Of a DNA stretch of 64,000 nt, positions 2,610-55,308 are shown in pieces. The stretch covers positions 1,364,001 through 1,428,000 of the forward strand of contig NZ_CP032627.1 in the NCBI RefSeq assembly GCF_003627095.1, read 5' to 3'. The notes under the pieces were generated by a model, which did not search any database, was not told where the DNA came from, and was given only the letters and a program-made list of their open reading frames with translations. Numbering within the stretch: position 1 is the first letter of the stretch; each line of letters begins with the position of its first letter. The DNA is from Lactococcus allomyrinae (GTDB lineage Bacteria > Bacillota > Bacilli > Lactobacillales > Streptococcaceae). Both the position numbers and the translations under genes were made by a program.

Positions 2610-2627
2610 CTTGTCAGCACTGACAAG
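2610..2627. repeat. Palindrome CTTGTCAGCACTGACAAG
   Basis: Perfect 18-base palindrome of the TGTCAG-N2-CTGACA family, in the spacer between the two pstS genes and inside the segment bounded by the 29-bp inverted repeat. There is no T-run next to it, so it is not an obvious terminator here. Confidence 0.8.
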
Positions 2628-2654
2628 ATATAAAGCGACAAAAGATTTTGATTT

Positions 2655-2683
2655 ATGAAGAAGAAAATTTTTATCGCTTTAGT
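2655..2683 (+). repeat. Right arm of 29-bp perfect inverted repeat
   Basis: Plus-strand copy of the first 29 bases of the second pstS gene. It would encode MKKKIFIALVY and then stop. No ribosome binding site precedes it. It looks like a ghost copy of the gene's 5' end and is the partner of 2308-2336. Confidence 0.9.
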
Positions 2684-2697
2684 TTATTAAGAAAGAG

Positions 2698-2727
2698 GCT
2701 GATTGATTCCTGCTTGTATCAATCAGC
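2698..2727 (-). terminator. Terminator after first pstS
   Basis: Perfect ten-base stem GCTGATTGAT / ATCAATCAGC with a ten-base loop, just after the first pstS stop. A moderately T-rich tract (CTCTTTCTT) follows on the minus strand. It may let the upstream binding protein be made in excess. Confidence 0.6.
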
Positions 2728-2735
2728 ACCTGGAA

Positions 2736-3632: not shown

Positions 3633-3714
3633 GAGAAGTTTCTCCAATTAATTTCTAAATAAGTTTGTTAAGCACTTTTTGCTTACAAAACTATTCTATC
3701 ATCAAAATGCCTTT

Positions 3715-3758
3715 CCAAATGTAAACCCTTGGTAAATACTAAGTAAATGGAATGTAAA
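3715..3758 (-). promoter_or_regulatory. PHO box: four TTTACN repeats in 11-base register
   Basis: Read on the minus strand, four units begin with TTTAC (TTTACATTCCA, TTTACTTAGTA, TTTACCAAGGG, TTTACATTTGG), each exactly 11 bases long. This is the layout of PhoP/PhoB operators in phosphate-starvation promoters. It lies about 85-125 bases before the first pstS start codon. Confidence 0.7.
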
Positions 3759-4253
3759 CAGAATAAATTTACTCAAAAAATTCCCTGTCAGCATCGTAAA
3801 CTCTGTCAGTACAATCAGATTTAATACCATTTTACTTTTAAAAGCTCCCTTCCGCTTTAAATTCCAACAAACTTTTATATGTATTCGCTCGAAACGACTA
3901 AATCCGTAAAAAGAATGGCATACAGAGTGCGTATCATAGTGCTATTTTTACAACACAAAGCTATGAGTACAATGATCGATCTATAAGCTGCTTACACAAC
4001 AAACCAGATTTTACTTTCGACTCACTCCTCAAAGACACTATGCAGTTCATCTGCCAAGTTTTAGAAAAAACCAGAGATGAATTCATATAAATATTATTAA
4101 ATCAACCCAACAAAAAAACGATCAGCATTTTGACCGTTTTGTCAGTATACTGACAGAATTTATTACCATTTGTCAGTAGATTTTTGATCTTAAACATACA
4201 TAAACTTTTGGCACCAGCAAGTTCATGAAAACAGCGCTATATTCTCCAATTCA
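3759..4253. other. Gene-free spacer between smpB and pst
   Basis: No open reading frame with coding character is visible. The stretch holds half-sites of the CTGTCAG palindrome near 3785 and 3803, and one full copy at 4140-4155 that could serve as the smpB terminator. Nothing else is recognised. Confidence 0.5.
4140..4155. terminator. Palindrome TGTCAGTATACTGACA downstream of smpB
   Basis: Perfect 16-base palindrome with the TATA core typical of intergenic copies in this window. It lies about 100 bases past the smpB stop. On the minus strand it is followed by CAAAACGG, so as a terminator it is weak. Confidence 0.45.
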
Positions 4254-4721
4254 TCAGCGGTTATAAGACTTGAGTTGCCTTGCAATATCTCGATTTTGGT
4301 CTTTACGCTTGAGCGTTTCACGTTTATCATACTGCTTTTTCCCGCGCGCAAGTCCCATCAATACCTTAGCAAATCCGTTTTTCAGATACACTTTCAATGG
4401 AATAAATGTTACGCCCGTCCCCGCTAATTCTTTGTCAATCTTAGCAATTTCTTTCTTATTAAGCAATAACTTTCGCGTTCTCAGCTCATCCACATTAAAA
4501 ATATTTCCCTGCTCAAAAGGTGCAATATGCACATTTGATAACCATACCTCACCATCTCGTACACGTGCAAAACCATCTTTTAACTGTATCTTAGACTTTC
4601 TGACAGACTTTATTTCCGTACCTGTCAGCACAATTCCAGCTTCAAAAGTTTCAAAAATTTCATAATCATGCCTTGCTTTTTTATTTTGCGCTAACGGCTT
4701 GTCCTCTGTGTTTTTTACCAT
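4254..4721 (-). CDS. smpB: SsrA (tmRNA)-binding protein SmpB
   Basis: Small basic protein that binds tmRNA and carries it to stalled ribosomes for trans-translation. At 155 residues it has normal length. The core blocks [19 protein letters not shown] and [17 protein letters not shown] match SmpB, and the lysine/arginine-rich tail ([19 protein letters not shown]) enters the ribosome. It lies 21 bases after the HxlR gene. The ATG has no Shine-Dalgarno; a TGGTAAAAT box lies exactly six bases upstream, so a leaderless transcript is possible. Family call is firm. Confidence 0.96.
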
Positions 4722-4742
4722 AAATTTATTTTACCACATCAT

Positions 4743-5045: not shown

Positions 5046-5147
5046 ATTTTTCTCCCATCTAAAAATTTACAGTAACAAAAAAGTGCGTACTTATATTTTA
5101 TAATCCATTATACTATAATATTTTCATACAACTTATTTTAACAGAGT

Positions 5148-5322: not shown

Positions 5323-5335
5323 ACAAGGAGAAAAA

Positions 5336-5979: not shown

Positions 5980-5983
5980 ACTT

Positions 5984-8602
5984 TTATACTAATTTTTCAC
6001 TAACTCTATCCAAGAGTCCACCAATACCAGCAGCATTAGAACCACCAGCCATCGCCATATCTGGCTTACCGCCACCTCGGCCGTCAATCAATGGAGCAAG
6101 TTCTTTAACTAAGTTTCCTGCTTTGATCTCTGATGACTTGCTTGCCACCAAAAGACTTGCTTTTTCACCAATTTTTGCAACAAGCACTAACACATCTGAA
6201 AGTTCCTTTTGTTTCCAAATATCTGCAAGTTGACGCAAACCATTTGCATCAGGAACAGATACCTCACTAGCAACAAAAGTCAAATCTCCTACTGATTGTA
6301 TATTTTTAAAAATTTCATCTGACTGAGTTGCTGCAAGTTTTCCTGCTAAAGCATTATTTTCTTTCTGAGCAGTTTTTAGCTCATCTTGAAGACTTGAAAC
6401 CTTTGCTACCACTTGTGATATTTGTGGTGCTTTAATTACCCCTGCTACCTCATTCAAAGTATCTTCAGCATCCTTAAAGGCTTCATAAGCTTTTTGACCC
6501 GTCACTGCAATAATCCGACGAACACCCGAGCCAATGCCTTCTTCTTTGATAATCTTGAATAGACCAATTTCAGAAGTTGTTGCTGTATGTGTTCCTCCAC
6601 AAAGCTCCACTGAATAATCACCAATTTTTACAACTCGGACAACTTTTCCATATTTTTCACCAAAAAGTGCCATTGCTCCCATTGATTTCGCTGTTTCTAC
6701 ATCTGTTTCAATCGTATCAACTTTTATAGATTGCCAAATCACTTCATTAACCTGACGTTCAATCGCTGCTAATTCTTCTTTTGTCACTTGTGCAAAGTGA
6801 GTGAAATCAAAACGGAGGAAATCAACCTCGTTAAGTGATCCTGCTTGTAAGGCATGATTACCTACAATATGATGAAGCGCTGCATGAAGTAAATGAGTCG
6901 CCGTATGATTTTTCACAACAGCATTACGCCGCTCTACATCAATCTCTAGAGTATAAGTATCACCAACCTTGAGCGTTGATAATATTTCTACTTCGTGCAG
7001 ATTTTGTCCATGAGGAGCGTGTTGCACATCTAAAACGTTTGCCACCACTTGACCTGAAGCATTTTTTATCACACCGTGGTCAGCAACTTGTCCACCCATT
7101 TCAGCATAAAATGGAGTAACATCAAATACAAGTTGAGCTGTACCAGTTACATTTTCAACAAGCTCATTATCTTTAACTGCTACCAACAATTTCGCTTGTG
7201 CTACTTTATCTTCATAAAGGAAAGTTGATTCAACTTCAATTGAAGACAAAGTTTCATTTTGAGCGCCCATTGAGCCACCTTTAACCACTGCACTACGCGC
7301 TCTGTCTTGCTGCTCTTTCATTGCAGCTTTGAAACCTTCGTGGTCAATCTTGAAGCCTTCATCATAAGCAAGTTCCTCTGTTAATTCCACTGGGAAGCCA
7401 TACGTATCATAAAGACGGAAAATATCTTCTCCCTCAAGTGTATCTTTCCCTTCAGCTTTGAGCTTGCTCAAGAGTTCATCAATCAGCTTTTGTCCCGCAT
7501 CAATAGTTCGATTAAATGTTTCTTCTTCACGATCAATAATCTGCATGATAAAGTCTTGTTTTTCAAGCACTTCAGGATAGTAACTTTGCATGATTTTTCC
7601 AACAGTTGGGACTAATGGCGCCAAGAATTTGCCTTGAATACCTAATTTTTTCCCATGCATAACAGCACGACGTAGCAAACGACGTAAAACATAGCCCCGT
7701 CCTTCATTTCCAGGCAATGCCCCATCACCGATAGCAAAACTCAATGAGCGAATATGGTCCGCAATAACCTTGAAACTCATGTTTTCTCCATCAGAATCAT
7801 AAGTTTTTCCAGATAGTTTCTCAATTTCACGAATAATAGGGAGAAAAAGGTCAGTATCAAAGTTAGTTTTTCCACCTTGAATGATACAAACCATCCGCTC
7901 CAATCCCATGCCTGTATCTATATTCTTCTGAGGCAATTCAGGATACTCTGAACGTGGGATTGCAGGATTAGCATTAAATTGAGAAAGGACAATATTCCAG
8001 ATTTCAATATAGCGGTCGTTTTCAATATCATCAGCAAGTAATTTTAATCCGACGTGTTCTGGATCATACGTTTCACCACGATCAAAGAAAATTTCTGTAT
8101 CTGGTCCCGAAGGTCCAGCCCCAATTTCCCAAAAATTATCCTCAATAGGAACAAGATGTGAAGGGTCAACTCCGACTTCTACCCAACGATTAAAAGTATC
8201 TTTATCATCAGGATAATAAGTAATGTATAATTTTTCAGCTGGAAATTCAAACCATTCTTTACTTGTCAACAGCTCCCAAGCATAAGCAATCGCTTCTTTA
8301 CGGAAATAATCACCAATAGAAAAATTCCCCAACATCTCAAACATTGTATGATGACGTGCTGTTTTACCTACATTTTCAATATCATTTGTCCGAATTGCTT
8401 TTTGTGCATTAGTAATTCGTGGATTTTCTGGAACAACTGAACCGTCAAAATATTTTTTCAATGTCGCAACACCAGAATTAATCCAAAGTAAAGTTGGATC
8501 ATTTACTGGTACAAGACTTTGTGAAGGTTCTACTGTATGATTTTTTGATTTAAAAAATTCAAGAAACATTTGACGAACTTCTGCTGAAGTCATGGTTTTC
8601 AT
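5984..8602 (-). CDS. alaS: Alanyl-tRNA synthetase
   Basis: Class II synthetase that charges tRNA-Ala. At 872 residues it has full length: catalytic and tRNA-binding domains in the first ~440 residues, a linker beta-barrel, the editing domain with zinc-site motifs HTATH (near 565) and CGGTH (near 665), and the C-Ala domain ending in the glycine-rich [14 protein letters not shown]. The ATG has AAAGGAG upstream. A T-box leader lies between it and the upstream foldase gene, so expression should rise when uncharged tRNA-Ala accumulates. No copies of the CTGTCAG palindrome occur inside this conserved gene. Confidence 0.98.
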
Positions 8603-8920: not shown

Positions 8921-8927
8921 TTAATTA

Positions 8928-14660: not shown

Positions 14661-15653
14661 CTATTTTGCCTTTGTTTCATTGTTAACTTCTTTTATTATA
14701 GCATAGAAACGAGGTGGATAGAGCTTGTTTCGCGGATTTTTTTTGAAATTTTCTAAAAAATTTTGATAGTAGGGCACTAAATTTTGTGTAATTTGTGTGA
14801 AATTTGCTGATGAAATCTTGTCATCACTGACAGAAAGTAAATTGAGTCCTGGTGGCGCGATATAAGGTTTGTCAAAGTTTTCTGTCAGTAAATTTTTCCC
14901 TTGCTGATAATATTTTTCTTGAATTTCCAACCATTTCGTTGACCGATGAAAGAGTTGTTGTCTGACAAAATGAAAAAGCCCTCTGTCAGCACTGACAGGT
15001 AATGACAATGGAGCTTGTGCGGAAAAAGGCTGGCGCAAATGTGTCAACAGTTCTCCGTGACCAAATAATATTTCTTCTGTTAAATGTAAAATGTTGCCCC
15101 TCAAGTCCTGATGAATCAATGATTTTAATCTTAATTTTTTTCGTTCTAAATCAAGTTCCCAGAAATAAAATCCTCGATTTTCAGAAAAATACATCAAATT
15201 TTTTTGGAGTTCTGTCAGTTGATGACTCAGCCATAATTTCTTTCCCATTAGCCAAATCACTGAATAACCATGAGTTTGATAGTTTTCTGTTCGTTCTTTT
15301 AGGCGTTTGAGCGAAAGAGAGGAACATTGAACTTCTATTGCAATTTTATCGTTAACCAGCAAATCAGGGGTTTGTTTTAACTCCGGAAGATATTTTTCTA
15401 CTTCCACTTTTTCGGACTTTTTGAACCAACGATAGAGTATCTTCTTTAATGTTAAATGTTGCACAGACTCATTTTCAGTCCACGATTCACAATTTTGTAA
15501 AGTTTTGTGCGCAAAATGTGTAATTTTTATATTTCCATTTTTCAAGACAACTTCTGTTTTGCAAGCAGGACAAAAGTATTGCCCAGTCAGTTCTTCTGGA
15601 GAACTTTCTAATAAGTTAACCAGTTTATTTTTTTCATCAATTGCTGTCAGCAT
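14661..15653 (-). CDS. coiA: Competence protein CoiA
   Basis: Competence-induced nuclease-like protein that supports recombination after DNA uptake. The N-terminal region has YFCPACKTEVVL and ITHFAHK (Cys/His zinc-type ends). The nuclease core is VNDKIAIEVQCSSLSLKRL with the E-x-Q pair near residue 110. At 330 residues it is full length. A CTGTCAGCACTGACAG palindrome is in frame at 14983-14998 and encodes VSAD. The ATG has no Shine-Dalgarno; TTTTCGTATA lies seven bases upstream and might be a competence sigma-factor box, though it is not the streptococcal TACGAATA. More palindrome copies lie just upstream. Confidence 0.9.
   Translation of the reverse strand: MLTAIDEKNKLVNLLESSPEELTGQYFCPACKTEVVLKNGNIKITHFAHKTLQNCESWTENESVQHLTLKKILYRWFKKSEKVEVEKYLPELKQTPDLLVNDKIAIEVQCSSLSLKRLKERTENYQTHGYSVIWLMGKKLWLSHQLTELQKNLMYFSENRGFYFWELDLERKKLRLKSLIHQDLRGNILHLTEEILFGHGELLTHLRQPFSAQAPLSLPVSADRGLFHFVRQQLFHRSTKWLEIQEKYYQQGKNLLTENFDKPYIAPPGLNLLSVSDDKISSANFTQITQNLVPYYQNFLENFKKNPRNKLYPPRFYAIIKEVNNETKAK
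14983..14998. repeat. Palindrome CTGTCAGCACTGACAG inside coiA
   Basis: Perfect 16-base copy within the coiA reading frame. On the coding strand it is read GTC AGT GCT GAC, giving VSAD. Confidence 0.85.
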
Positions 15654-15695: not shown

Positions 15696-15713
15696 CTGTC
15701 AGTACACTGACAG
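15696..15713. repeat. Palindrome CTGTCAGTACACTGACAG upstream of coiA
   Basis: Inverted repeat with four-base TACA core in the coiA / DUF218 spacer. Runs of A on its left read as TTTTTTT on the minus strand, so it may end the DUF218 transcript. Another half-site lies at 15672-15679. Confidence 0.7.
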
Positions 15714-17002: not shown

Positions 17003-17020
17003 TTGTCAGTATACTGACAG
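17003..17020. repeat. Palindrome TTGTCAGTATACTGACAG
   Basis: TATA-core copy of the palindrome family between the permease stop and its main terminator. The transcript would carry two hairpins in a row. Confidence 0.8.
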
Positions 17021-23744: not shown

Positions 23745-23767
23745 TTGTCAGTATACTGACAGTTTTT
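23745..23767 (+). terminator. Palindrome-based terminator of lutC
   Basis: TTGTCAGTATACTGACAG (23745-23762) followed by TTTTTATTTTT. A degenerate copy (CTGTCAGTCTATTGATAG) lies about 30 bases upstream and a half-site just downstream. Confidence 0.75.
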
Positions 23768-24359: not shown

Positions 24360-24384
24360 CTGTCAGTATACTGACAGTTTTTTT
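24360..24384 (+). terminator. Palindrome-based terminator of second doxX
   Basis: Perfect 18-base palindrome CTGTCAGTATACTGACAG (24360-24377) followed by seven T. It is the cleanest case of this repeat acting as an intrinsic terminator, though its stem is shorter in G/C than usual. Confidence 0.8.
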
Positions 24385-25404: not shown

Positions 25405-25423
25405 GCTGTCAGCGTGCTGACAA
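25405..25423 (-). terminator. Terminator of HD-domain gene
   Basis: TTGTCAGCACGCTGACAG read on the minus strand, followed by CTTTTTGTTTTT. It is a palindrome-family member with a GC-enriched core. Confidence 0.75.
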
Positions 25424-26590: not shown

Positions 26591-26613
26591 CTGTCAGCAC
26601 TGACAGCTTTTTT
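26591..26613 (+). terminator. Palindrome-based terminator of rpsT
   Basis: CTGTCAGCACTGACAG (26591-26606) followed by CTTTTTTT. This intergenic copy has the two-base core otherwise seen mainly within genes. Confidence 0.85.
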
Positions 26614-26639: not shown

Positions 26640-29147
26640 TTATGATTTTTTAAATATTTCAAAATCGGAATCTAACATTCCAATAAGTGGATTGAAGTTC
26701 CCAGTCAGAATCATCTTTTCTGTCAAAATTCCAGACTGAATCACTGGCTCCTCATCATCTTCTTCAAAGAGTGAAATCGCCTTATTTACGACAACTGATG
26801 TTTTTTTGTCAGTGCTGACAGACTGGTCAACAGATGCTTTCTCAAAACTGTCAGTCACTTCTTTGATGTCAGTTATTTTTTCAGTCAAAAATCGCTCAAT
26901 TAGTCCTGTTTTGCGGTTTGCTCCAGCTTTTGCTACAGCTGCGGCAAAAGCTTTTCGCTCTCCAAGTAAGATAAGACTTTGTTTTGCTCGAGTAATGGCT
27001 GTATATAAAAGATTACGCTCCAACATTCGTGAATAGCTGGAAACCATTGGAACGACCACAGTAGAAAACTCTGAACCTTGTGATTTATGAATAGACATCG
27101 CATATGCCAGTGTAATTTTGTACCACTCTGCTCGTGGATAACTCAATTCTTGACCATCAAAGTCCATAACCAGCTCATCTTGTTTGCTCTCAGTAAATTT
27201 TGCAGGAATTAATTCAATAATAATACCCAAATCACCATTAAAAACATTGGCTTGAGCATCATTAACCAAATGTAGAACCTTGTCTCCTTCACGAAATTTT
27301 AAATCATTAAAGTTAAATTCAAGTCGCTCCTCAAGAGGATTAAAAAGATTTTGGAGCAAGATATTCATTGCATTTATCCCAGCAATTCCTTTATACATTG
27401 GTGCCAAAACTTGTAATTCAAAAGGATTATTCCCACGATTTTTCCAAGCTTGCGCAATTTGCCCGATGAGTTGTGGAATCTGCTGACTACTTGCTTCAAA
27501 GTATGAGCGGTCTGCTTTCTTCTCCGTAAAATCACGAGGAAGTTCTCCGTTTTTAATGTGGTGCGCTAGATTTGTAATTGTGGAATCATTTCCTTGACGG
27601 AAAATTTTATCCAACTTAATTGATGGTATTTGAGAAATTTTCAGCAAATCAGCAAAAACTTGCCCTGGCCCAACTGAAGGAAGTTGGTCTCCATCTCCTA
27701 CTAATAATACCTTCATCGAACTCGGAATCGCTTGAAATAGCTTGTTTGCTAACCAAGTATCCACCATCGAAAATTCATCAACAATCAAAAGACTACCTGA
27801 TAAATCATTACCAAAAGACTCCGTATCTTCATCTTGACCCAGACCAAGATGTCGATGAATCGTTGCCGCTGGTAAACCTGTCAATTCATTCATCCGACGC
27901 GAAGCCCGCCCAGTCGGTGCCGCAAGCAATATCGGAAATAAGTCATCTGTATAATGTGCTGGTTCCAAGTCGATTTTATGAATTCTTGCATAAACCTCAA
28001 TAAAACCATTAATAATCGTTGTTTTCCCAGTTCCTGGACCACCAGTCAAAATGAAAAACTGTTGGTTCATCGCACCGATAATCGCACATTTTTGTAACTC
28101 ATCATAAGTAATTTCGAGATCGTTTTCAACTTCTGTCAGCACTGACAGGATTTTTTTATCAGCAAAATTTTTGTCAGCACCGTCTGTTTCAGAAGTTCCT
28201 ATTTTTTGGACGCTATTGTCAGCAACTATTGTTTTTGTCAGTGCTGACAGACTTTTTTTAATTCCTTCTTCTGCAAAAAAAAGCGAATTTTCAAATATTT
28301 TAGTTCCATCTTGTTGAATTTTTCCGTCAATAATCAGATGATTAATTTCAGCAGCAACTTCTGACGGATTAACTTCAACATTTCGTGCTTCTTCAAGCAG
28401 AAAAATGGTTTCAGAAAGAAGTTCTTTTGCCTCAATATAAGTATCTCCTGTCGCCAAAGAATGTGTATTGACGACATGCAAAAGTGCTGCCCGAAAGCGA
28501 TTAGAGCTATCTGCCTCAATGCCTAACTCGTTAGCAATCTTATCTGCAGTTTTAAAACCAACACCCTTGATTTCTTCAACAAGCTGATAAGGGTTTTCTT
28601 CAATCTTCTCAAGCGTTTCATCTTTATAAAGTTCATAGATTTGAAAAGTGATTTTACTTGGTAAGCCATATTCTGCAAGCTTTGCCAATACTTTTTCCAT
28701 TCCATGATTCTCTCTCAAACGCTTGATAAAAGAATTTTTACGCGCAAGTGTCAATAAACCATCTAACTTCTCAGGTGCTTCAAGAATACGGTCTATTGTA
28801 TTTTCAGGGAAAAGCTCAACGATTTTCTCTGCTGTTTTTTTCCCAATTCCTGGAAATTTATCTGACGAAAAATACTTTACTAGTCCCGCACTTGATGTAG
28901 GCATTGCCTTTTCATATTGCAAAACTTGCAACTGCTCACCATATTTTGGATGATGAGTCAGATTACCATAAAAAGTATAGCTATCTCCCTCAACCACATC
29001 CCCAATTGTACCATTGACGACAATTTCCGAATCATCATAATCAGCATTAGTTTCATCAATTTCAATGAGTAACACCTTATAAAAATTACTCGTGTTGCTA
29101 AAAAAAATTGCCTCAACAGAGCCTGTCACATAAGTCTTTTCGCTCAT
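26640..29147 (-). CDS. recD2: RecD2-type SF1B DNA helicase
   Basis: 835-residue 5'-3' DNA helicase of the RecD-like family that works without RecBC. The N-terminal part has an OB-like region and helix-hairpin-helix segments (GIGKKTAEKIVE, GVGFKTADKIANELG). The motor shows Walker A GGPGTGKTT, motif Ia TGRASRRMNELTG, Walker B VDEFSMVD, motif III GDGDQLPSVGPG, and the C-terminal SIHKSQGSEF and YTAITRAK. Three palindrome copies are in frame at 26806, 28133 and 28235, all in low-conservation linkers or the tail. Its start overlaps the phosphatase gene stop by four bases (ATGA). Confidence 0.95.
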   Translation of the reverse strand: MSEKTYVTGSVEAIFFSNTSNFYKVLLIEIDETNADYDDSEIVVNGTIGDVVEGDSYTFYGNLTHHPKYGEQLQVLQYEKAMPTSSAGLVKYFSSDKFPGIGKKTAEKIVELFPENTIDRILEAPEKLDGLLTLARKNSFIKRLRENHGMEKVLAKLAEYGLPSKITFQIYELYKDETLEKIEENPYQLVEEIKGVGFKTADKIANELGIEADSSNRFRAALLHVVNTHSLATGDTYIEAKELLSETIFLLEEARNVEVNPSEVAAEINHLIIDGKIQQDGTKIFENSLFFAEEGIKKSLSALTKTIVADNSVQKIGTSETDGADKNFADKKILSVLTEVENDLEITYDELQKCAIIGAMNQQFFILTGGPGTGKTTIINGFIEVYARIHKIDLEPAHYTDDLFPILLAAPTGRASRRMNELTGLPAATIHRHLGLGQDEDTESFGNDLSGSLLIVDEFSMVDTWLANKLFQAIPSSMKVLLVGDGDQLPSVGPGQVFADLLKISQIPSIKLDKIFRQGNDSTITNLAHHIKNGELPRDFTEKKADRSYFEASSQQIPQLIGQIAQAWKNRGNNPFELQVLAPMYKGIAGINAMNILLQNLFNPLEERLEFNFNDLKFREGDKVLHLVNDAQANVFNGDLGIIIELIPAKFTESKQDELVMDFDGQELSYPRAEWYKITLAYAMSIHKSQGSEFSTVVVPMVSSYSRMLERNLLYTAITRAKQSLILLGERKAFAAAVAKAGANRKTGLIERFLTEKITDIKEVTDSFEKASVDQSVSTDKKTSVVVNKAISLFEEDDEEPVIQSGILTEKMILTGNFNPLIGMLDSDFEIFKKS
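26806..26821. repeat. Palindrome TTGTCAGTGCTGACAG in recD2
   Basis: In-frame copy near the recD2 3' end, read as VSTD (in SVSTDKK). Confidence 0.85.
28133..28148. repeat. Palindrome CTGTCAGCACTGACAG in recD2
   Basis: In-frame copy, read as LSVLT (in KKILSVLTEV), in the linker before the helicase motor. Confidence 0.85.
28235..28250. repeat. Palindrome TTGTCAGTGCTGACAG in recD2
   Basis: In-frame copy, read as LSALT (in KKSLSALTKT), about 85 bases from the previous one. Half-sites lie between them at 28172 and 28217. Confidence 0.85.
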
Positions 29148-29737
29148 AATACTTTATCCCAGATTTTCATTTCAAAATGACGATGTCCCGACTCCAAAAT
29201 GGTAAGTGTGTTATTAGCCAATCCACCACCAGTACGCAACTCTGCAACATCAAAACCCGCTAAATGTCGTATTCCTGCTGTGCCTGAAGCCCCATGACCA
29301 ACCAATAATACATTCTCCAAATCAGCCGTCAACAAATCCCTTGCCAATGCATCAAATCTTGAGAGAACTGATTCAACAGATTCTGCACCAAAAGCTGAAC
29401 CATCAAACTTGTCCAATTCAAACCTAGAATCATGCATTTCTTTTGGATACTTGGCAATTGCGTCCGTAATCAAACAACCCTCTAGCTCACCAAAATTCCA
29501 TTCTGACAGCCTATTGTCAGTACTGACAGCGCTGTCAGTAATTAATTTTGCAGTCGTCAGTGCCCTTTGTTGTGGGCTAGACAATACCTTATCAAAAGAA
29601 ATTGGATCCAAATACTGACGAACACGTTCAATTGCTTGATAAGACTCAGGTAATAAAGCAGAATCTCCTTTCTGCCCTTGTAACCTTCGTTCTAAATTCC
29701 ATTCCGTCTTACCATGTCTTACAAAATAAATTTTCAT
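29144..29737 (-). CDS. Histidine phosphatase-family protein (GpmB/CobC-like)
   Basis: 197-residue phosphatase of the phosphoglycerate mutase-like branch. The catalytic RHG is in YFVRHGKTEWN with His8, the proton donor glutamate in WNFGELEG, and the second histidine in LVGHGASG. Such proteins are usually broad phosphatases. The palindrome at 29514-29529 together with flanking half-sites encodes ITDSAVSTDNRLS, between conserved blocks. It overlaps recD2 by four bases. No Shine-Dalgarno is visible at the ATG, but the N-terminus matches the family. Confidence 0.88.
   Translation of the reverse strand: MKIYFVRHGKTEWNLERRLQGQKGDSALLPESYQAIERVRQYLDPISFDKVLSSPQQRALTTAKLITDSAVSTDNRLSEWNFGELEGCLITDAIAKYPKEMHDSRFELDKFDGSAFGAESVESVLSRFDALARDLLTADLENVLLVGHGASGTAGIRHLAGFDVAELRTGGGLANNTLTILESGHRHFEMKIWDKVL
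29514..29538. repeat. Compound palindrome in phosphatase gene
   Basis: TTGTCAGTACTGACAG (29514-29529) overlaps a reversed palindrome CTGACAGCGCTGTCAG (29523-29538), and another CTGACAG lies at 29502-29508. All four half-sites are in frame. Confidence 0.85.
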
Positions 29738-35170: not shown

Positions 35171-36046
35171 TCACTCTTTCGTTAAAGTAACGCAAGTTCC
35201 TTTACCAATTTCAGATGTAATCTCTATTTTAAATTCTAATTTATCCAAAATTAATTTCGCAAGATACAACCCTAATCCCGTTGACTTTTGTTGAATTCGC
35301 CCGTTAAAACCAGTAAAACCGTGTTCAAAAAGTCGCGGAATATCTTCAGAAAGAATACCAATTCCTGTATCTTTAATGCTGAATTTCCCTTGTTCAATTT
35401 GAACCAAAATTCCACCTTCTTTTGTATATTTAACAGCATTATTAAGCAGTTGTTCAATAGCCAAACTCAGCCATCTTTGATCACTGACAACTGACCAATC
35501 TCCCTCAATCTTTACTGACAAATTTTTTTGAATGAAGAAACTACTATATTTTTTTACCAAATCTTTTGTCAGTGCTGACAGACTAATATGATTAAATCTA
35601 AAATCTGTTGCAAGATTATTTATTCTTTGATATTCAAGAAGTATTTTCAAATAATTTTCCAATGAAAAAAGCTGATTTTTTAGTTCTCTCTCATTTATCT
35701 TTGTCTGCGTCATTAAATCAATTGCAGATAATGGAACTTTCATTTGATGAGACCAAACGCGGATAATATCTTCAAAATCACGCTCTGCAAGGATTTGTTG
35801 TTCCAATCTTTTCTGTAAGTTTTGATTTTCTTTTGTCAGCACTAACACTTTTTCTCGAATTGATTTCCATCGAAAATAAGAAGAAACTAAGTAAATAAGA
35901 AAAATAATCAAAGCAAATAAAGTGCTATTCAGAAACGCCATCATTGGCAAATGCCAAAGCAAAAAATCTACAACATAAATAGCTAAAATTAAGAGGAAAA
36001 CCCCTATCTGCGGTAACTTTGATTTCAAAAATTTAAACCAGAGCAT
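35171..36046 (-). CDS. Intramembrane-sensing histidine kinase, BceS-like
   Basis: 291 residues. Two closely spaced membrane helices (about 8-30 and 34-55) with almost no external loop are typical of BceS-type kinases that sense antimicrobial peptides through a BceAB transporter. The phosphoacceptor box is [16 protein letters not shown]-box [13 protein letters not shown], and G-boxes DTGIGI and [11 protein letters not shown] prefer the ATG at 36046, with GAGG eight bases upstream, to the GTG two codons earlier. It overlaps the response regulator stop. A palindrome at 35566-35581 encodes LSALT. Probable transporter partner: 42469-45286. Confidence 0.88.
35566..35581. repeat. Palindrome TTGTCAGTGCTGACAG in histidine kinase gene
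   Basis: In-frame copy, read as LSALT (in SLSALTKDL), between the phosphoacceptor and ATPase domains. Confidence 0.85.
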
Positions 36047-36713
36047 AGCCACATCCTCGTTTCGTCATAATGTGTTCATCAAAACCAATCTCAGCTAATT
36101 TTTTACGTAAACGAGTCATTTTTACGTTCAAAGTATTCGTATCAATAAACTCATCAGTTTGCCATAACTCCTGTAAAATCTTCTCTTTTGTCACGACTTC
36201 ACCGTTCGCTCGGAAGAGTAAGGTTAAAATTTTATTTTCAGATGTTGTTAGTTCAAGCTCAATTCTGTCAGCACTGACGAGATTTTTGTCAGTACTAATT
36301 GAGTTTTCTGTCAGTAAAAATCCTGCAAACTCTAACTTCTCAGCACCTGAAAATGAATATGAACGCCTTAAAAGTGCCTTAATTTTTGCCGACAATATTT
36401 CCAAAGAAAAAGGCTTCGTAACAAAATCATCTGCTCCCTGATTCATCGCTGTAATCTGATTCATATCATCTGACGATGATGAGATGAAGATAATAGGAAT
36501 TTGAGAAACTTTCCTAAGCTCACTTGTCCAATAAAAGCCACTATAAAATGGTAAACCAATATCCATTAATACTAAATCTGCATCAAATTCTAATATTTCC
36601 TGCTTAACAGCTCTAAAATTTAAAACACTTCTCACCTGAAATTCATTTTCCAATGAAGCTTTAATCGCTTTAACAATAATCTCATCATCTTCCACAATAA
36701 AAATCTTATTCAT
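36033..36713 (-). CDS. Response regulator, OmpR/BceR-like
   Basis: 226-residue regulator with a receiver domain (EDDE acidic pocket, phosphorylated aspartate in LVLMDIGLPFYSGF, lysine in VTKPFSLEIL) and an OmpR-type winged helix (ENKILTLLFRANGEVVTKEKI, VKMTRLRKKL). GGAGAG precedes the ATG. It is coupled to the BceS-like kinase gene. Near-copies of the palindrome at 36265-36300 encode ISTDKNLVSADR in the interdomain linker. Likely target is the Bce-type transporter operon 6 kb away. Confidence 0.9.
   Translation of the reverse strand: MNKIFIVEDDEIIVKAIKASLENEFQVRSVLNFRAVKQEILEFDADLVLMDIGLPFYSGFYWTSELRKVSQIPIIFISSSSDDMNQITAMNQGADDFVTKPFSLEILSAKIKALLRRSYSFSGAEKLEFAGFLLTENSISTDKNLVSADRIELELTTSENKILTLLFRANGEVVTKEKILQELWQTDEFIDTNTLNVKMTRLRKKLAEIGFDEHIMTKRGCGYALV
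36265..36280. repeat. Near-palindrome in response regulator gene
   Basis: CTGTCAGCACTGACGA, one mismatch to the perfect form, with a second degenerate copy (TTGTCAGTACTAATT) about 15 bases on. Read as VSADR and ISTDK. Confidence 0.75.
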
Positions 36714-42468: not shown

Positions 42469-44463
42469 TTATCTTTCAACAATTTTGTAGTAAACTCTGC
42501 TTGTAATTTTGTAAATGAGGTAATAGATAGCAGCACAGCTCGCAATAGTAATCAGGCTGATGGTCAGTGTTAGATTACTATCCACCACACCAAAAATCAT
42601 CAAAATCTTATCAATCATCCGATAAGCCCCTAGAAGGTGAAGAATCGTAATGACCAACGGCAAGAAGAAAATCATACGCACTTGAGATTTGATTGTTTTT
42701 TGAACCTCAGCCTTTGAAAGCCCAACTTCTTGGAGAATCTTGAATGACCTTTTATCTTGTGCTCCTTCAGAGAGCTGTTTATAATAGATAATCAAAGCTG
42801 CTCCAAGAATGAAGCTGGCTCCTAAAACAAAACCAATAAATACAAAACCACCAATTTGGGCACGTTGAGTTTCCCATGTTTCAGTACGGTAACTTAGTGA
42901 TAGACTATCATCATTTCCATTTTGTCGATTGAAGGCCGTTGTTAATTTCTTTTCATCTGCCTTGTTCACTTCAAACAACGTCATTGTGATTGGAAGTTGT
43001 GTATAATCTTGCTCACCCTTGGTTGAATTGTAATTCTTTAATTCTTGATTCATTATTTTCTCGTTGGCAAATACCATTAATAATGAATTTGTTGGACTTA
43101 TTCCTTCTGGAAAATTCTTTACTGATTCGAGATGGCCAGCAACACGGTATTGATGACCATACCAGTCTACTGTATTAACTGTAGTCGTTGCACTTTTCTT
43201 ATCACTTGATAAGTCTAAAAGCAAGACCTGATTTTCTGTCAGTGCTGACAAATCTTGATTACCAAGAGATTTTAAACTATCTATCGTTGTCAGCGTAACA
43301 AAATAATCATCTTGATCAAGAAGTTTTGTACTTCCAGAACTTCTTGCTATAAATTGTGTCTCAGAACCTACTTTACGTGTAATTTCAAGGTCTGGTGACA
43401 TATAAAGAGTAGAAAGACTATTGACTTTGACACCTGCATCTGACGCTGCTTTTTCTGTCAGTGCTGACAGGTCTGCACTCGTTTTTTTATCACCAAAGGA
43501 TGTAATCTGCGCCTCTTTAGGGAATTGAGTCTTGACCATATTCTCTGTTCCAAAGAAAATTCCCAGACTGACAATAACTGTCACAATTGTCATTGACAAT
43601 AAAATGGTAATATTACCGAGACCAATTGCATTTGCTTTCATTCGATAAAGCATCGAACTTGTCGTGATAAAGTTATTAGGTTTGTAATAACTTGGACGCT
43701 TCTTCTTACGTTTGAGATACCATACGGTAAAACTCACGTAGAAAAAATATGTTCCGAAAATAACAAGAAGTACGGCGATAAAAAATTTGACCAAAGCAGC
43801 TATTGGATTTTCAACAGTGAGGGCAACATAATATCCTGCTACAAGTAGAATCACTGCAAGTCCAGCAAAGAAAATATTAGATTTAGGCTCTCTTTCGCCT
43901 TTGGACTCTTCACGTAACAAATCAAGACTTGATGATTTCCAGATAATGAAACTTCCGATAATCATTAAAATCAGGAAAAAGATGGCATAGATAAACATAA
44001 CAATTCCGATAGCTATTGGATTTATCGCCAAGTTAAAATAACTTCCTCCGATAAGATTGACGAAGATTAAATAAAGAAACTTCGAAAAAGCAATACCACA
44101 TATTGTTCCGATAACAACTGTGATGATATAGCTAAGTAAAAGCTCAAGAAAAGCTACGCCCGCAATCCGAACTTTACCAAATCCAAGAATATCATAAAGT
44201 CCAAACTCTTTTGACCGTTGAAGTTGTAAGAAACGGTAGCTATAAATTAAAATTAAAATCGAAAAAATTGTTAAGATGATAAGCGCAAAGCCCATCAATT
44301 CAGCAACTGCACTTCCTCCTCTAAGTTTATCAATAGAAGGTGAAAGTCCAATAGATGCCGTTACAAAAATCATGACAAACATCGTAATACAAGCCATCAA
44401 AAAAGGAGCAAAACTTTTAAATCCTTTTCTAATATTACTTGTGGCGAGCTTCAAACTAAGCAT
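42469..44463 (-). CDS. Bacitracin-type ABC transporter permease (BceB-like)
   Basis: 664-residue FtsX-type permease with about ten membrane helices and a large external domain (about residues 300-540) between helices 7 and 8, the BceB layout that confers resistance to, and senses, peptide antibiotics. The helix-1 region KGFKSFAPFLMACITMFVM and the C-terminal permease repeat are typical. Two palindromes (43246-43261, 43455-43470) lie in the external domain and both encode DLSALTE. It overlaps the ATPase gene by eight bases. The probable sensor kinase is at 35171-36046. Confidence 0.9.
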   Translation of the reverse strand: MLSLKLATSNIRKGFKSFAPFLMACITMFVMIFVTASIGLSPSIDKLRGGSAVAELMGFALIILTIFSILILIYSYRFLQLQRSKEFGLYDILGFGKVRIAGVAFLELLLSYIITVVIGTICGIAFSKFLYLIFVNLIGGSYFNLAINPIAIGIVMFIYAIFFLILMIIGSFIIWKSSSLDLLREESKGEREPKSNIFFAGLAVILLVAGYYVALTVENPIAALVKFFIAVLLVIFGTYFFYVSFTVWYLKRKKKRPSYYKPNNFITTSSMLYRMKANAIGLGNITILLSMTIVTVIVSLGIFFGTENMVKTQFPKEAQITSFGDKKTSADLSALTEKAASDAGVKVNSLSTLYMSPDLEITRKVGSETQFIARSSGSTKLLDQDDYFVTLTTIDSLKSLGNQDLSALTENQVLLLDLSSDKKSATTTVNTVDWYGHQYRVAGHLESVKNFPEGISPTNSLLMVFANEKIMNQELKNYNSTKGEQDYTQLPITMTLFEVNKADEKKLTTAFNRQNGNDDSLSLSYRTETWETQRAQIGGFVFIGFVLGASFILGAALIIYYKQLSEGAQDKRSFKILQEVGLSKAEVQKTIKSQVRMIFFLPLVITILHLLGAYRMIDKILMIFGVVDSNLTLTISLITIASCAAIYYLIYKITSRVYYKIVER
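43246..43261. repeat. Palindrome CTGTCAGTGCTGACAA in permease gene
   Basis: In-frame copy, read DLSALTEN in the external domain of the BceB-like protein. Confidence 0.85.
43455..43470. repeat. Palindrome CTGTCAGTGCTGACAG in permease gene
   Basis: In-frame copy, read DLSALTEK, about 70 codons before the other copy; the two give the same heptapeptide DLSALTE in one protein. Confidence 0.85.
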
Positions 44464-46745: not shown

Positions 46746-47918
46746 TTAAAACTCCTTTATACGAGCTCGATATGACTCTACTGCTTTTCTTAGCTCTGTA
46801 AAATTATCGCTACTAAATTTCTCGCAGATTTCTTGTGCAAGTACTGTTGCTACAACATTTTCCATAACAACACCTGCCGCTGGAAGCGCCGTAGGGTCTG
46901 AGCGTTCGACACTTGCTTTATAAGGTTCATGACTCTCAGTATCAACAGACATCAATGGCTTATAGAGTGTTGGAATAGGTTTCATCACACCACGTACAAT
47001 AATTTGTTCACCATTCGTCATCCCGCCTTCGAAGCCACCAAGATGATTGGTCTTTCTTGTATATCCAGTTTCTGCATTCCAAAGAATTTCATCCATGACT
47101 TGACTACCAGGAAGACCACCAGCTTCAAATCCGATACCAAATTCTACACCTTTAAAAGCATTGATTGATACTACGCTATATGCGATTTTTGCATCTAACT
47201 TGCGATCATACTGCACATAGCTACCAAGTCCTGCGGGTAAACCTTCAGCGCGGACTTCAATAACTCCACCAATCGTATCTCCTGCTTTTTTAATTGTGTC
47301 AATATAAGCACGAATTTCATCTGCTTTGTCAGTACTGACAACAGATAAATCATTCTGACGTGCCGTTTGTTGAATTTTTACTACTGACAAAGGTTCTGTC
47401 AGTACTGACGAAAGGTCAAAAGCTCCAAATTTTACAACATGATTGGCAATTTCAATCCCAAGTTCATGGAGTAGTTTTTTTGCAACAGCACCCACTGCGA
47501 CACGCATGGTTGTTTCTCTAGCTGATGAACGTTCTAATACATTACGCAAATCTTCAAAATCATATTTCATCCCACCAACAAGGTCTGCGTGTCCTGGTCG
47601 CGGCTTTGTTAGCCGGCGTTGCGACTTCACTTTATCTTCAACATCATGGCTTGCCATGATTTGTTCCCAGTTTTTAAAATCACGATTAGTCACATTAAGC
47701 GTGATGGGGCTGCCAATTGTTTTACCATGACGAACACCAGATGTGATTTCAACTTGATCAGACTCAATTTTCATCCGTCCACCACGTCCGTAACCGCCTT
47801 GGCGACGTTTTAGTTCAACGTTAATGTCTTCCGCTGCCAATGGTAGTCCTGCTGGAACTCCTTCTATAATAGCGGTCAAACGTGGACCGTGACTTTCTCC
47901 TGCTGTGAAATATCTCAT
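46746..47918 (-). CDS. aroC: Chorismate synthase
   Basis: Last step of the shikimate pathway, EPSP to chorismate, needing reduced FMN. 390 residues. [16 protein letters not shown] at the N-terminus, [15 protein letters not shown], and [17 protein letters not shown] are conserved. Two palindromes (47326-47341, 47396-47411) lie in frame in a variable stretch and give VSTDK and SSVLTEP. GGAGG precedes the ATG, which overlaps the Nudix gene stop (ATGA). It is apart from both aroBE and tyrA-aroAK-pheA although all share orientation. Confidence 0.97.
47326..47341. repeat. Palindrome TTGTCAGTACTGACAA in aroC
   Basis: In-frame perfect copy, read as VVSTDK. Confidence 0.85.
47396..47411. repeat. Near-palindrome CTGTCAGTACTGACGA in aroC
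   Basis: One mismatch at the end. Read as SSVLTEP, 22 codons before the other copy. Confidence 0.75.
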
Positions 47919-48975: not shown

Positions 48976-48976
48976 T

Positions 48977-49645
48977 TCATTTCTCCATGAGTTGCTCATA
49001 AATTGGAATCAAATTTCTTATTGTTTCTAACATTTCTGTCAGAATATTCTCATCATGATTTCCATCAAATTTCTCAGCTGACCAAACACGACCAATTTCA
49101 AATTCCGATTTTTTCACTGCTGACAGGCGATTTATAGTTTCTGTCAGTACTGACAAATTATAAAATTCATCCTTCGTATGATTTTTTGAGATGACAAAAT
49201 CTGATGGTAACTTTTCTAGCTCTGTCAAATTTGACAAAAGTCTGTCAGCATATTCTTTTTGAGCTTTTGGTTGATCGATGATTGACAAATAGACAAAGAC
49301 ATAATCCTTCCAAATCCCTAGTTGAAAATGTGGTTCCATCTTATAACCACGTGGTTTTGTAGAAATAGCTGCCCAAGTATTCTCTGGCGCATTTGTCGTT
49401 CTTCTAAGATGTTTTGCGATATGCAAATAAAATTGTCGCTCTGACAGATTTTCTGTCATCTCCGCACTTTCAGTGCTCGAATGTCCACTCTCGCTAGACG
49501 ACTGAAGTCGTAAGTCGAGTCGCAGCACTGACAGAAATTTTTCACCGATTTCCAAGAAATCAGGTTGAATCTTTTCACGAATTTTACTCATTCTGGCCTC
49601 TAAACCAACGACATCAAATACTTCAAAAGATTGCTTAGTAAACAT
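48977..49645 (-). CDS. DUF1054 (YktB) family protein with unusual insert
   Basis: 222 residues. The family blocks [56 protein letters not shown] and DQPKA are present. Between the first and second blocks is an extra Ser/Glu-rich stretch, [20 protein letters not shown], which is encoded by DNA like the family D spacer repeat (49489-49522) plus palindrome half-sites. A further perfect palindrome at 49141-49156 gives NLSVLTE. AGGAGGAAGG precedes the ATG. Function of the family is unknown. Confidence 0.87.
49141..49156. repeat. Palindrome CTGTCAGTACTGACAA in DUF1054 gene
   Basis: In-frame perfect core, read as NLSVLTET. A further half-site (ACTGCTGACAG) ends 15 bases upstream and is also in frame. 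Confidence 0.85.
49489..49522. repeat. Family D repeat inside DUF1054 coding sequence
   Basis: CTCGCTAGACGACTGAAGTC and then GTAAGTCGAGTCGC resembles TTCACTAACCGACTAAAGTC and GGAAGTTCAAATCGC at 40461-40497. It contains a CGACT/AGTCG hairpin and stays in frame. Confidence 0.6.
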
Positions 49646-51840: not shown

Positions 51841-51848
51841 TTATTTTA

Positions 51849-52337: not shown

Positions 52338-52804
52338 TCGTATTTTCTCCACAATTCTCTCAAATTTTGTTCTAAATTGCTTCTATTCGAAACAGATAAT
52401 CTCAAAATCGGAGTGGCTAAATTATTATTTTTCATTCTCATTTTAGGAAAATATTTTTGAAAATCCTTGACTACAACATAGACATAATAGTTAGTGCCAC
52501 CTCGTCCAGCAGATTCTCCAGCTTTATATATATTTTCAATATCTGACCATAATATCGGCTGTTGGATTGGATTATTTACGATTTTTTTACAATAAATTCC
52601 CTCGGTAGTTGTTCTTATGTAAACTGGAACCATAACATAAACCAATATTCCTATAAAAAGTAACAGGCAAGAAATTCCAAACATATCCCATCTATTCCCA
52701 AAAGAAAGAACAGCAATTACTAATCCAAGGGCAATCATGAATAGACCAGACAAGCATAGCTTCAAGCTAAGACACATTTTTCTAATCTTACTCTCTTCAA
52801 TCAT
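52334..52804 (-). CDS. Membrane protein with PH-like domain (STM3941-type)
   Basis: 156 residues. Two hydrophobic helices (about 12-32 and 40-60), then a beta-rich region with [26 protein letters not shown] and [19 protein letters not shown] typical of small bacterial PH-like membrane proteins. It is linked by ATGA overlaps to aroB upstream and DUF1697 downstream. No role in the pathway is known; family assignment is moderate. Confidence 0.7.
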
Positions 52805-53868
52805 TTTCTCAGATAATCTCTCATCTCTTCAAAGCTTACAGAGTTTATCGCAGCACGTCCAATTTCAGGTACAATCACTGTTTTTATCAACGTGCCTCGT
52901 GCTTTTTTATCATGAGTCAATGCTTCAAACAATTTTTGTTCATCCCACGGTTCATACTCGATGGGAAGACCATATTTCACAACCATTTGGCGAATTTGTT
53001 CTGTAATTCCTTTTGGCATCAATCCTTTTTCCTCAGCAATTTTACTGATTTGTACCATACCAATCGCAACTGCTTCTCCGTGCATCACTTTGCCATAACC
53101 CGCAACGCTTTCTACTGCATGACCGATGGTATGCCCAAAATTCAAGAAAAGTCTCACGCCATTATCTAACTCGTCATCAACAACAACCTTACGTTTCACA
53201 TCACAAGAAGCAAAAATAATCTCTTCCGCATGATTTTGTCTTAAATCACTAATATCTTGAGCTTTTTCGAGTAGTTCCCACAATTTTTTATCACCGATTA
53301 GTCCACACTTTATGACTTCTCCAAGACCTTCTTTAAATTCTCGAACACCTAGTGTTGAAAGAACATCTGGGTCTATCAGCACCCCATCAGGTTGCGTAAA
53401 AGTACCAATCATATTTTTAGCGACACTAGAGTTAATTCCTGTTTTTCCACCGATTGAACTATCAACCTGTGCAGTCAAACTTGTTGGGATTTGTAAAAAA
53501 TGAATGCCACGCATATAGGTGCTTGCTATAAATCCAGCTAAATCTCCTGTTACACCACCACCTAGCGCAATGATTCCGTCTGAGCGAGTCATACCATTTT
53601 CAGCTGCAAAATTCCAAGCGGCTTCCGCTGTTGCCAGCACTTTACTCGCCTCTCCTTCTGGAAACTCAAATACTGATACATCAAAACCAGCTTCTGAAAG
53701 GAGTGACAGAACTTTTTTTCCATATAATTGATTGACATGATTGTCAGAAATCAACATGATTTTTTGTGGTTTCCAAAGGCTTGCGACCCAAGTACCAACA
53801 GTGTCTAGGCTACCACGTTCAATAATGATTTCATAGGGGTGATTGGGCAAATTTACATTCAATTTCAT
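52801..53868 (-). CDS. aroB: 3-dehydroquinate synthase
   Basis: Second step of the shikimate pathway: cyclises DAHP to 3-dehydroquinate using NAD and zinc. 355 residues. NAD-binding [14 protein letters not shown], the [20 protein letters not shown] substrate block, and zinc ligands in [16 protein letters not shown] and [10 protein letters not shown] are intact. It follows aroE by 98 bases. It is one of three separated blocks of aromatic amino acid genes in this window. Confidence 0.97.
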
Positions 53869-53966
53869 TAAAAGTACCTCTTATTTTCAACTTCTATTTT
53901 CAGATAAAGTAGACGATTGGGAGTACTAGCTTCTTAGATTACTAAAGCTGTCACTTACCATCACTT

Positions 53967-54836
53967 TTATTCATAGCGTATTTTATCTCTAAGTTTTTGT
54001 TCGATTTTATCTGTTGGCATCTTTTTTCCAGTCCACATCTCAAAGCTTGCTGCTGCTTGATGAAGCAGCATTCCTAGACCATTCGAAGTAGTTGCACCTT
54101 GAGCTTTTGACCATCTCAAAAACGGAGTCTCGGGAACTTTATAGATTGCATCCACCACAAGACATTGTTCTGATAACCTGAGTTCATTTGGCAGGGGTTG
54201 AGACTCACCGTCCATTCCAACAGAAGTTGCATTAACCAATAATTGTGATTCTGTCAGCTGTTTTTGAATTTCATCAGTAACTGACAGGTCTGTCAGTAAT
54301 ATCTCTGTTTCTGTCAGTGCTGACAGCTTTTCCAAACGTGCTGACAGAGGTTCAAACGATTGTGAACGCCGCGCCAAAACATTAATTTTTTTGACACCAA
54401 GAAGTGCGGCCTGAGCAATAATTGCAATCGCTGCACCACCACCACCAATCATTGTCATTGTTTGGTTTTTGACATCAAAATCAAATGGTTCAAGTGCTTT
54501 AAAAAAACCAATCCCATCAGTATTATGACCAATCAATTCTCCGTCAAAATTAACAACCGTATTGACAGCACCAATCAACCTAGCTTCATCAGTCAGATAA
54601 TCTACAAAGTCAATCACATCATGCTTATATGGCATAGAAATGTTCACTCCATACATATTTAAACGTTTAACATTTTCTATAATAGCGCCTAAATCCTCTG
54701 ATTCAACTTCCCATGCAAGATAGACACCATTTTCATTCGTCAACTCAAAAGCTAAATTATGAATAAAAGGCGATAAACTGTGTTTAATCGGCTGAGCAAC
54801 AACCGCTGCCATACGCGTATGTCCGTTAATTTCCAT
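53967..54836 (-). CDS. aroE: Shikimate dehydrogenase
   Basis: Reduces 3-dehydroshikimate to shikimate with NADPH. 289 residues. Shikimate site QPIKHSLSPFIHN, catalytic NISMPYKHDVIDF, NTDGIGF and cofactor loop IGGGGAAIAIIAQAAL and LARRS are clear. The gene is rich in palindrome pieces: one perfect copy (54311-54326, giving KLSALTET) and at least four half-sites within about 100 bases, all in a surface region after the cofactor loop. GGAG precedes the ATG. Confidence 0.96.
   Translation of the reverse strand: MEINGHTRMAAVVAQPIKHSLSPFIHNLAFELTNENGVYLAWEVESEDLGAIIENVKRLNMYGVNISMPYKHDVIDFVDYLTDEARLIGAVNTVVNFDGELIGHNTDGIGFFKALEPFDFDVKNQTMTMIGGGGAAIAIIAQAALLGVKKINVLARRSQSFEPLSARLEKLSALTETEILLTDLSVTDEIQKQLTESQLLVNATSVGMDGESQPLPNELRLSEQCLVVDAIYKVPETPFLRWSKAQGATTSNGLGMLLHQAAASFEMWTGKKMPTDKIEQKLRDKIRYE
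54311..54326. repeat. Palindrome CTGTCAGTGCTGACAG in aroE
   Basis: In-frame perfect copy, read as KLSALTET. Half-sites lie at 54251, 54281, 54290 and 54340; those at 54281-54296 form a reversed palindrome CTGACAGGTCTGTCAG. Confidence 0.85.
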
Positions 54837-55173
54837 TATCTATCTCCATTTTCTTATAGTTAAGATTTATATTTCATATTGAGACTATTATCAATTCGTT
54901 GTAAAATACAACGACGAATTGACATCACTTCATGCTTTGTTCGTTTTATCTAGATAATTGCAGTTAGCACATCTATTTTGCCTTGCTTCTTCAACGAATT
55001 GTAGATTGAACTTCCGACTTTATAGAATTTCATCACTTACAGATATTAGCGAATTCGACAGCACAGCAGAGACAAAGCTAATAGTCACTCACAATATAAA
55101 ATTCTATCGGATTTAAAAGTGGAGTTAGTATATCAAAATATTCTACAGATACACCTTCTTCACGATTGCCCAA
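54837..55173. repeat. Spacer upstream of aroE with family A repeat
   Basis: Contains AATTCGTTGTAAAATACAAC-GACGAATT, a hairpin near 54893-54919, and a family A copy at 55095-55132 (TATAAAATTCTATCGGATTT then AAAAGTGGAGTTAGTATA). A Family D-like stretch may lie between. No gene is supported on this part. Confidence 0.55.
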
Positions 55174-55308
55174 CTATTTCTTCAAGTAAACTTTTGTTTT
55201 TTGAATTTTATCATCTGTCAGCTCTGACAAGTCCCACAATTGAAAGAAATAACCAACTTCTCTCTGATACCAGATATAACACTCATCACTATCTAGACGA
55301 ACTGACAT
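55174..55308 (-). pseudogene. Short frame of 44 residues, possibly a gene remnant
   Basis: ATG at 55308 opens MSVRLDSDECYIWYQREVG and runs to TAG at 55174. The same frame then continues open (GNREEGVSVEYFDILTP) into the family A repeat. It starts directly after the dedA terminator without a ribosome site. A near-palindrome at 55215-55230 encodes LSELTD. It looks like coding sequence that has lost its context; I do not recognise the family. Confidence 0.35.

Follow-up and report, generated by a model that had tools for sequence, protein, structure and literature searches.

Palindromes in the window and in the genome

The window considered here, the whole of a 64,000-bp stretch of Lactococcus allomyrinae DNA (C1:1364001-1428000), holds a coiA-like gene, recD2, aroC, aroE and genes for a histidine kinase, a response regulator and an FtsX-like permease, and through these genes and the spacers between them is scattered a palindrome in which TGTCAG and CTGACA are separated by two (N2) or four (N4) bases. 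The N2 form matches 18 times (14 exactly, four with one mismatch), whereas 100 shuffles predict 0.15, and the N4 form six times, all exact, against a predicted 0.09; 20 exact and four one-mismatch copies thus stand where chance would supply about 0.24. When gaps from -6 to 20 bp were tried, N2 (14) and N4 (6) were the only inverted TGTCAG..CTGACA pairs in the window. A sequence-only reading had estimated about twenty copies, which is borne out. All 22 positions that it listed exist, within one or two bases, except that the copy placed at 43246 lies at 43237; two listed copies (36266 and 47397) carry one mismatch, and two further one-mismatch copies (14819 and 35834) had been overlooked.

The source genome (G000; 2,758,410 bp in 3 contigs) contains 349 N2 and 178 N4 copies and none of the reversed-pattern control for either. 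The palindrome is not, as that reading supposed, the enriched element itself: the basic unit is the half-site YTGTCAGY, present 3,042 times in the whole genome against 284 for its reverse; the half-site occurs alone or as inverted pairs whose geometry varies by species.

Distribution and dialects of the half-site

The N2 palindrome is present in 31 of the 118 genomes searched, the source included, being most numerous in G011 (705), G014 (494), G045 (440) and G005 (376), and declining through G004 (71), G040 (36), G001 (20), G034 (19), G008 (18), G016 (16) and G010 (12) to 0-5 in the remainder. The N4 form, searched in 12 genomes, is numerous in the source and G005 (183) only, three others having one or two. 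We infer that G004 is L. fujiensis JCM 16395, G016 L. cremoris NBRC 100676 and G010 L. taiwanensis NBRC 109049; G001 is probably L. lactis-like, and G045 is a 76% complete genome of a different genus. The closest genome to the source is G005 (96% identity in AroC, against 83% for L. fujiensis and 82% for L. cremoris), while G001 and G016 are 84.7% identical across 17.7 kb.

Across 245 genomes, YTGTCAGY exceeds its reverse in G005 (3171/245), G045 (2592/171), G001 (2284/277), G011 (2055/246), G016 (2028/254), G014 (1694/298), G010 (1045/176) and G004 (591/217), the others lying at about 0.7-2.6 fold (G009, 248/226). Relative to the median of six-mers of the same composition in sampled stretches, TGTCAG stands at 7.3 in G045, 4.4 in G000, G005 and G001, 4.1 in G014, 3.3 in G011, 2.2 in L. 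taiwanensis, 1.6 in L. fujiensis, 1.3 in G007, 1.2 in G012 and 0.8 in G003; the value for G009 (2.8) comes from one 20-kb stretch, and that for G016 (5.8) is inflated, seven of its eight stretches having been chosen for containing the palindrome. The consensus is YTGTCAGY with A/T-rich flanks, taking the form CTGTCAGTAAWTTT in G001. A 240-kb sample of that genome has a single N2 palindrome, and its halves pair in the opposite sense, CTGACA-N4-TGTCAG, in 15 cases, as they do, also 15 times, in L. taiwanensis.

The genus has dialects of the word: TGTCAG in the source, L. cremoris and others, CGTCAG in G007 and CTGTCAAA in G012. G007 is poor in TGTCAG, but CGTCAG is abundant in it, with 122 copies over 120 kb and 43 over a further 40 kb of chromosome, where control words stand at 0.27/kb; genome-wide, YCGTCAGY occurs there 1299 times against 285, the next genomes reaching about two fold (G016, 545/228; G001, 552/258; G010, 421/199). 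The third dialect, counted as YCTGTCAAA, stands at 858 against 57 in G012 and 370 against 46 in G008, and at 1.6-4.2 fold in other genomes. None of the three words stands out in the genome-wide counts of G002, G003, G009, G015 and G017. Local arrays also occur: one G007 locus (L154) carries the CGTCAG unit in tandem, with 19/22-bp spacing and a 41-bp period, and a convergent spacer of G011 (L109) holds three near-copies of TGTCAG-N2-CTGACA with their flanks, spaced 60 bp.

Helical phasing

Half-sites tend toward one face of the helix, with a period of 10.3-10.4 bp in both orientations; the phasing holds across reading frames, and with six genomes pooled its coherence can be traced to about 250 bp. 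In the source sample TGTCAG ranks first in phasing among 529 testable six-mers, and pairs of half-sites cluster, 257 lying 14-45 bp apart where 48 are expected. The Rayleigh Z assumes independent pairs, an assumption violated by clusters, and control words are the better guide. The samples for phasing and for genomic position comprised 464 kb of G000, 200-269 kb of G005, 240-300 kb of G011, 100-200 kb of G014, 47-56 kb of G045 and 240 kb of G001, with gene calls made for the present analysis.

Position relative to genes and strands

In G000 and G005, 62 of the 67 N4 copies sampled lie between genes, and 49 of the 68 N2 copies sampled in G000 lie in coding sequences (CDS). In five genomes, spacers 30 bp or longer hold 136 palindromes. 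Tandem spacers have 99 of these, convergent ones 32 and divergent ones five, even though the divergent and convergent classes are nearly equal in total length (31.2 and 30.0 kb). From a palindrome to the nearest stop codon the median distance is 16-17 bp for G011 and G014, 67-71 bp for G005, and 52 (N4) or 89 bp (N2) for G000, and at least six T follow within the next 12 bases in 58 of 131 stop-oriented intergenic copies. Many intergenic copies therefore look like terminators, a hairpin and T-tract after a gene, features that do not fit the copies in CDS. The latter, in the five genomes sampled, use two stop-free frames only, YTG-TCA.. (LS[VA]LT) and VS[TA]D. Sense and antisense half-sites in CDS are about equally frequent in six genomes of the TGTCAG dialect (715/729), in L. 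taiwanensis (35/27) and in G012 (24/29); G007 has 12/51.

The genes richest in half-sites encode a leucine-rich-repeat protein, a MutY-like protein, an ABC transporter and a family-20 glycosidase, followed by the RsmD-like, CCA-enzyme-like, coiA, recD2, aroE and DUF1054 genes. Long genes with none include those for EF-G, a ThrRS-like protein and AlaRS, each weak alone (P 0.04-0.10). The proposal that the most conserved genes lack the element holds for the two checked, alaS (5984-8602) and a 597-aa open reading frame at 11681-13474 (the putative pepF), neither of which contains a half-site, but for genes of such length the absence is weak by itself (P 0.04 and 0.11). As to distance from origin and terminus, inspection by eye of 20 sampled stretches, each of 20 kb, shows no trend. 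The two strands are used about equally along the replichores (207/210 and 82/94, the origin being assumed at the contig start and the terminus mid-contig).

Origin and conservation

Seven palindromes in CDS of the window can be aligned beyond G005, and six of these align without gaps to at least one relative that has no copy, indicating that these arose by substitution; at the seventh, 28236, relatives without the copy show gaps. Base preferences fade over about 10 bp from the palindrome. At the recD2 cluster, G011 has palindromes of its own at both places (28134-28147 and 28236-28249). Between G000 and G005 (94% identity), half-sites are kept in 80 of 99 cases and control words in 2636 of 3914 (Fisher P 0.002), though of 117 control words 12 equal or exceed the half-site; between G001 and L. 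cremoris, counted both ways, 32 of 49 half-sites are kept against 638 of 2093 controls, and one of 111 control words does as well. In the comparison of the window with G005, 10 N2 and six N4 palindromes are common to both, and three N2 are found in one genome only. In the centres of shared palindromes nine of 44 positions have changed, all by transition (C/T or G/A), where transitions overall amount to about 4%.

Chromosomal and foreign DNA

On small separate contigs, which we infer to be plasmids, half-sites are near background: 0.36/kb against 0.33 for the control on C2 of G000, 0.45 against 0.30 on C2 of G001 (40 of 58 kb) and, for its own dialect, 0.17 against 0.18 on C2 of G007 (40 of 87 kb), the chromosomal densities being 1.52, 1.30 and 1.02/kb, respectively. 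One source stretch, C1:180001-297000, has no N2 and a single N4 copy, with half-sites patchy at 0.15-0.85/kb; five of eight proteins tried there match phage families, one of them weakly. This motif-poor stretch is a mosaic, with a phage-type helicase, DUF1351 and IS605-like genes. In G011 four sampled 20-kb stretches are free of the palindrome, and the two annotated hold a lantibiotic-type cluster (L122; a pair of LanM-like synthetase genes and a C39 transporter) and a polyketide-synthase-type cluster with adenylation genes (L127).

Table 1. Palindrome copies and half-site clusters along the window
Feature	Position	Strand	Context
N2 palindrome TGTCAGCACTGACA	2612..2625	.	intergenic
N4 palindrome TGTCAGTATACTGACA	4140..4155	.	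intergenic; sister genome G005 has a copy with one centre transition
One-mismatch N2 copy	14819..14832	.	inside coiA-like CDS
N2 palindrome	14984..14997	.	inside coiA-like CDS, VSAD frame
N4 palindrome	15697..15712	.	intergenic
N4 palindrome	17004..17019	.	intergenic; stop codon 27 bp 5' of copy
N4 palindrome with T-tract	23746..23761	.	resembles terminator
N4 palindrome with T-tract	24361..24376	.	stop codon 10 bp before; resembles terminator
N4 palindrome, CGTG centre	25407..25422	.	stop codon 13 bp away
N2 palindrome with T-tract	26592..26605	.	35 bp 3' of recD2
N2 palindrome	26807..26820	.	inside recD2
recD2 cluster, 6 half-sites	28134..28249	.	holds N2 palindromes 28134-28147 and 28236-28249
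N2 palindrome	29515..29528	.	inside histidine-phosphatase gene; half-sites on flanks
N2 palindrome	35567..35580	.	inside histidine-kinase gene
One-mismatch N2 copy	35834..35847	.	inside the same histidine-kinase gene
One-mismatch N2 copy	36266..36279	.	inside response-regulator gene
N2 palindrome	43237..43250	.	inside FtsX-like permease gene, LSALT frame
N2 palindrome	43456..43469	.	inside the same permease gene
N2 palindrome	47327..47340	.	inside aroC; one base breaks copy in G005
One-mismatch N2 copy	47397..47410	.	inside aroC
N2 palindrome	49142..49155	.	inside DUF1054 gene (669 bp, 7 half-sites)
aroE cluster, 6 half-sites	54252..54346	.	includes N2 palindrome 54312-54325
N2 palindrome, non-YR centre (CT)	55216..55229	.	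intergenic; G005 version not intact

Discussion

We tentatively favour the view, possible though short of probable, that the half-site is a self signal of the DNA-uptake type, and that its reader is a competence receptor bound to the cell surface and approaching the DNA from one side. YTGTCAGY, in either orientation, would be a chromosome-wide mark of self, recognised in double-stranded DNA by a one-sided protein, most plausibly a surface-anchored competence component (the pilus or a ComEA layer) along which incoming DNA would lie flat. Several half-sites on one face could then be contacted together, their effects adding up over a stiff length of DNA, and a bias in uptake would maintain the word. 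The palindromes would be overlapping or abutting inverted pairs of the unit, which after stop codons may double as intrinsic terminators, the copies with T-tracts probably ending transcription. What recommends a competence surface of pilus and membrane-bound ComEA is that the word labels chromosomal DNA, comes in dialects and makes terminator-like pairs, features shared by the DNA uptake sequences (DUS) and uptake signal sequences (USS) of other bacteria (PMC3630211, PMC7811141).

Genes of the comEA and comEC types are present in the source. All 19 genomes searched give a comEA-type match, in no case above the curated cut-off of the family, and comEC is a single open frame in G000, G005, G011, G014, G001, G010, G007 and G012; the coiA-like gene lies in the window itself. 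In L. cremoris NBRC 100676 comEC is in pieces, partly on two contigs, and in G003 it is split across two frames, comEA still matching; the incomplete G045 gave no clear call. However, comEC is also whole in G002, G009, G013, G015 and G017, which have no strong motif, so that the link between competence and motif is circumstantial; a tethered chromosome-organising protein would give identical phasing.

Such a protein is the most serious alternative, if a rather unlikely one: a cooperative protein, tethered to the membrane or forming a bridging filament, that contacts phased half-sites on one face. Noc, SeqA and H-NS-like proteins organise chromosomes by tethering or bridging. The phasing in both orientations, the clustering of pairs, the conservation of half-sites and their chromosome-biased distribution would all be expected of it, but the word is patchy within one genus and differs between dialects by one base, and an organising protein requires neither the low level on small contigs nor the rarity in divergent spacers. 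Sites of the SlmA, Noc or MatP type should show positional bias, where we saw no trend by eye, and the lack of both that trend and replichore bias argues against KOPS-like marks; an oriented motif of the KOPS or Chi type was rejected for want of leading-strand bias. An uptake signal fits more of the features than does a genome-wide binding protein. The sequence-only reading, which had put forward a proliferating repeat, a chromosome-organising site, a DNA-uptake signal or a restriction-linked one, is supported in part.

Improbable, by comparison, is an iterated palindrome like the cyanobacterial HIP1, produced by a process at the DNA level (biased repair, recombination or methylation) with no part in uptake or packaging. 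The spread in CDS mostly by substitution and the patchiness between species agree with this, and a title among the references of PMC6604393 likewise has HIP1 spreading through substitutions, but a purely mutational drive predicts neither helical phasing nor rarity in divergent spacers, and sequence and length differ from GCGATCGC.

An RNA element, a terminator hairpin or mRNA-stability signal, is very unlikely as the sole role. It would account for the intergenic N4 copies, the T-tracts after stop-oriented copies and the strand bias of G007, and for the gtcagtaa of L. lactis an mRNA-destabilising role is cited in PMC2526093; against it stand the balance of sense and antisense copies in CDS, the persistence of phasing across frames, and flanks that pair without G-U preference (U.G 28, C.A 33, in five genomes). 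Taken together, the near-background level on presumed plasmids, the lack of sense bias in most species, the rarity in divergent spacers, the position after stop codons, the origin in genes mostly by substitution and the conservation speak against RNA element, mobile repeat and regulon alike. The mobile or proliferating repeat, one suggestion of the sequence-only reading, can practically be set aside: copy number, the local arrays and the gaps at 28236 speak for it, but at each of the other six alignable CDS copies at least one relative lacking the copy aligns without gaps, and base preferences fade so close to the palindrome.

If the uptake reading is correct, self-specific DNA uptake would extend to Gram-positives, in a food bacterium that can already be transformed (PMC11244767, which describes transformation with rpsL* donor DNA), and a genome statistic would reveal the geometry of a receptor. 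That this would be the first self-recognition uptake signal of a Gram-positive, with species dialects and one-face reading along a pilus or membrane layer whose geometry the phasing records, we suggest with greater reserve still. According to PMC12236230, bacteria generally recognise DNA of any source, Neisseria being the named exception, and among the matches listed (judged by titles and abstract openings, in a collection without most subscription journals) there was no Gram-positive DNA-uptake signal and no helical phasing of such a motif. Should the word prove a chromosome-organising site instead, it would constitute a new sort of binding array, phased and spanning the genome. Under either reading, a motif whose description as repetitive is credited to a 2002 paper is now open to direct test.

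Comparison with known systems

The L. lactis form of the word is already in print, and the view that the element is not a named one holds in part only. By 2008 gtcagtaa was described as a 'highly repetitive motif', credited to Mrazek 2002, lying downstream of L. lactis IL1403 genes and nearly absent (4%) from phage, prophage and transposon genes, with an mRNA-destabilising role credited to Redon 2005 (PMC2526093). The motif (gtcagtaa/ttactgac) has the core of the present word and shares its downstream position; the account, so far as available, cites the mRNA role, makes no comparison across genera and does not treat helical phasing, dialects or the geometries of palindromic pairs. PMC3547956 gives CTGACAGWTCTRTCA as a sequence found ahead of genes of the PyrR regulon.

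Identity with HIP1 was considered and rejected, the word differing from the GCGATCGC octamer. The paper cited for HIP1 periodicity reportedly concerns kilobase-scale periods. HIP1 resembles the present word as an abundant palindrome thought to be kept by selection and said to spread by substitution, but is tied to methyltransferases, and in the available text of PMC6604393 'periodicity' appears in a cited title only.

The word matches no known DUS or USS, the published words being ATGCCGTCTGAA and AAGTGCGGT. The USS of Haemophilus has another core and a demonstrated role in uptake, and the accessible part of PMC7811141 describes no phasing between USSs; it does share with the present word a short core with AT-rich segments, close opposed pairs at terminators and clustering, 23% of strong USSs lying within 100 bp of another. 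The DUS of Neisseriaceae is likewise an unrelated word with a demonstrated role in uptake, and phasing goes unmentioned in what is available of PMC3630211. Points of likeness to the DUS are copy numbers in the thousands, the existence of dialects, permissive sites within the core genome and terminators that contain inverted pairs; the present word has its genome-wide excess, its dialects, its inverted pairs at predicted terminators and, being near background on presumed plasmids and low but patchy in the phage-like stretch, the distribution of a core-genome feature.

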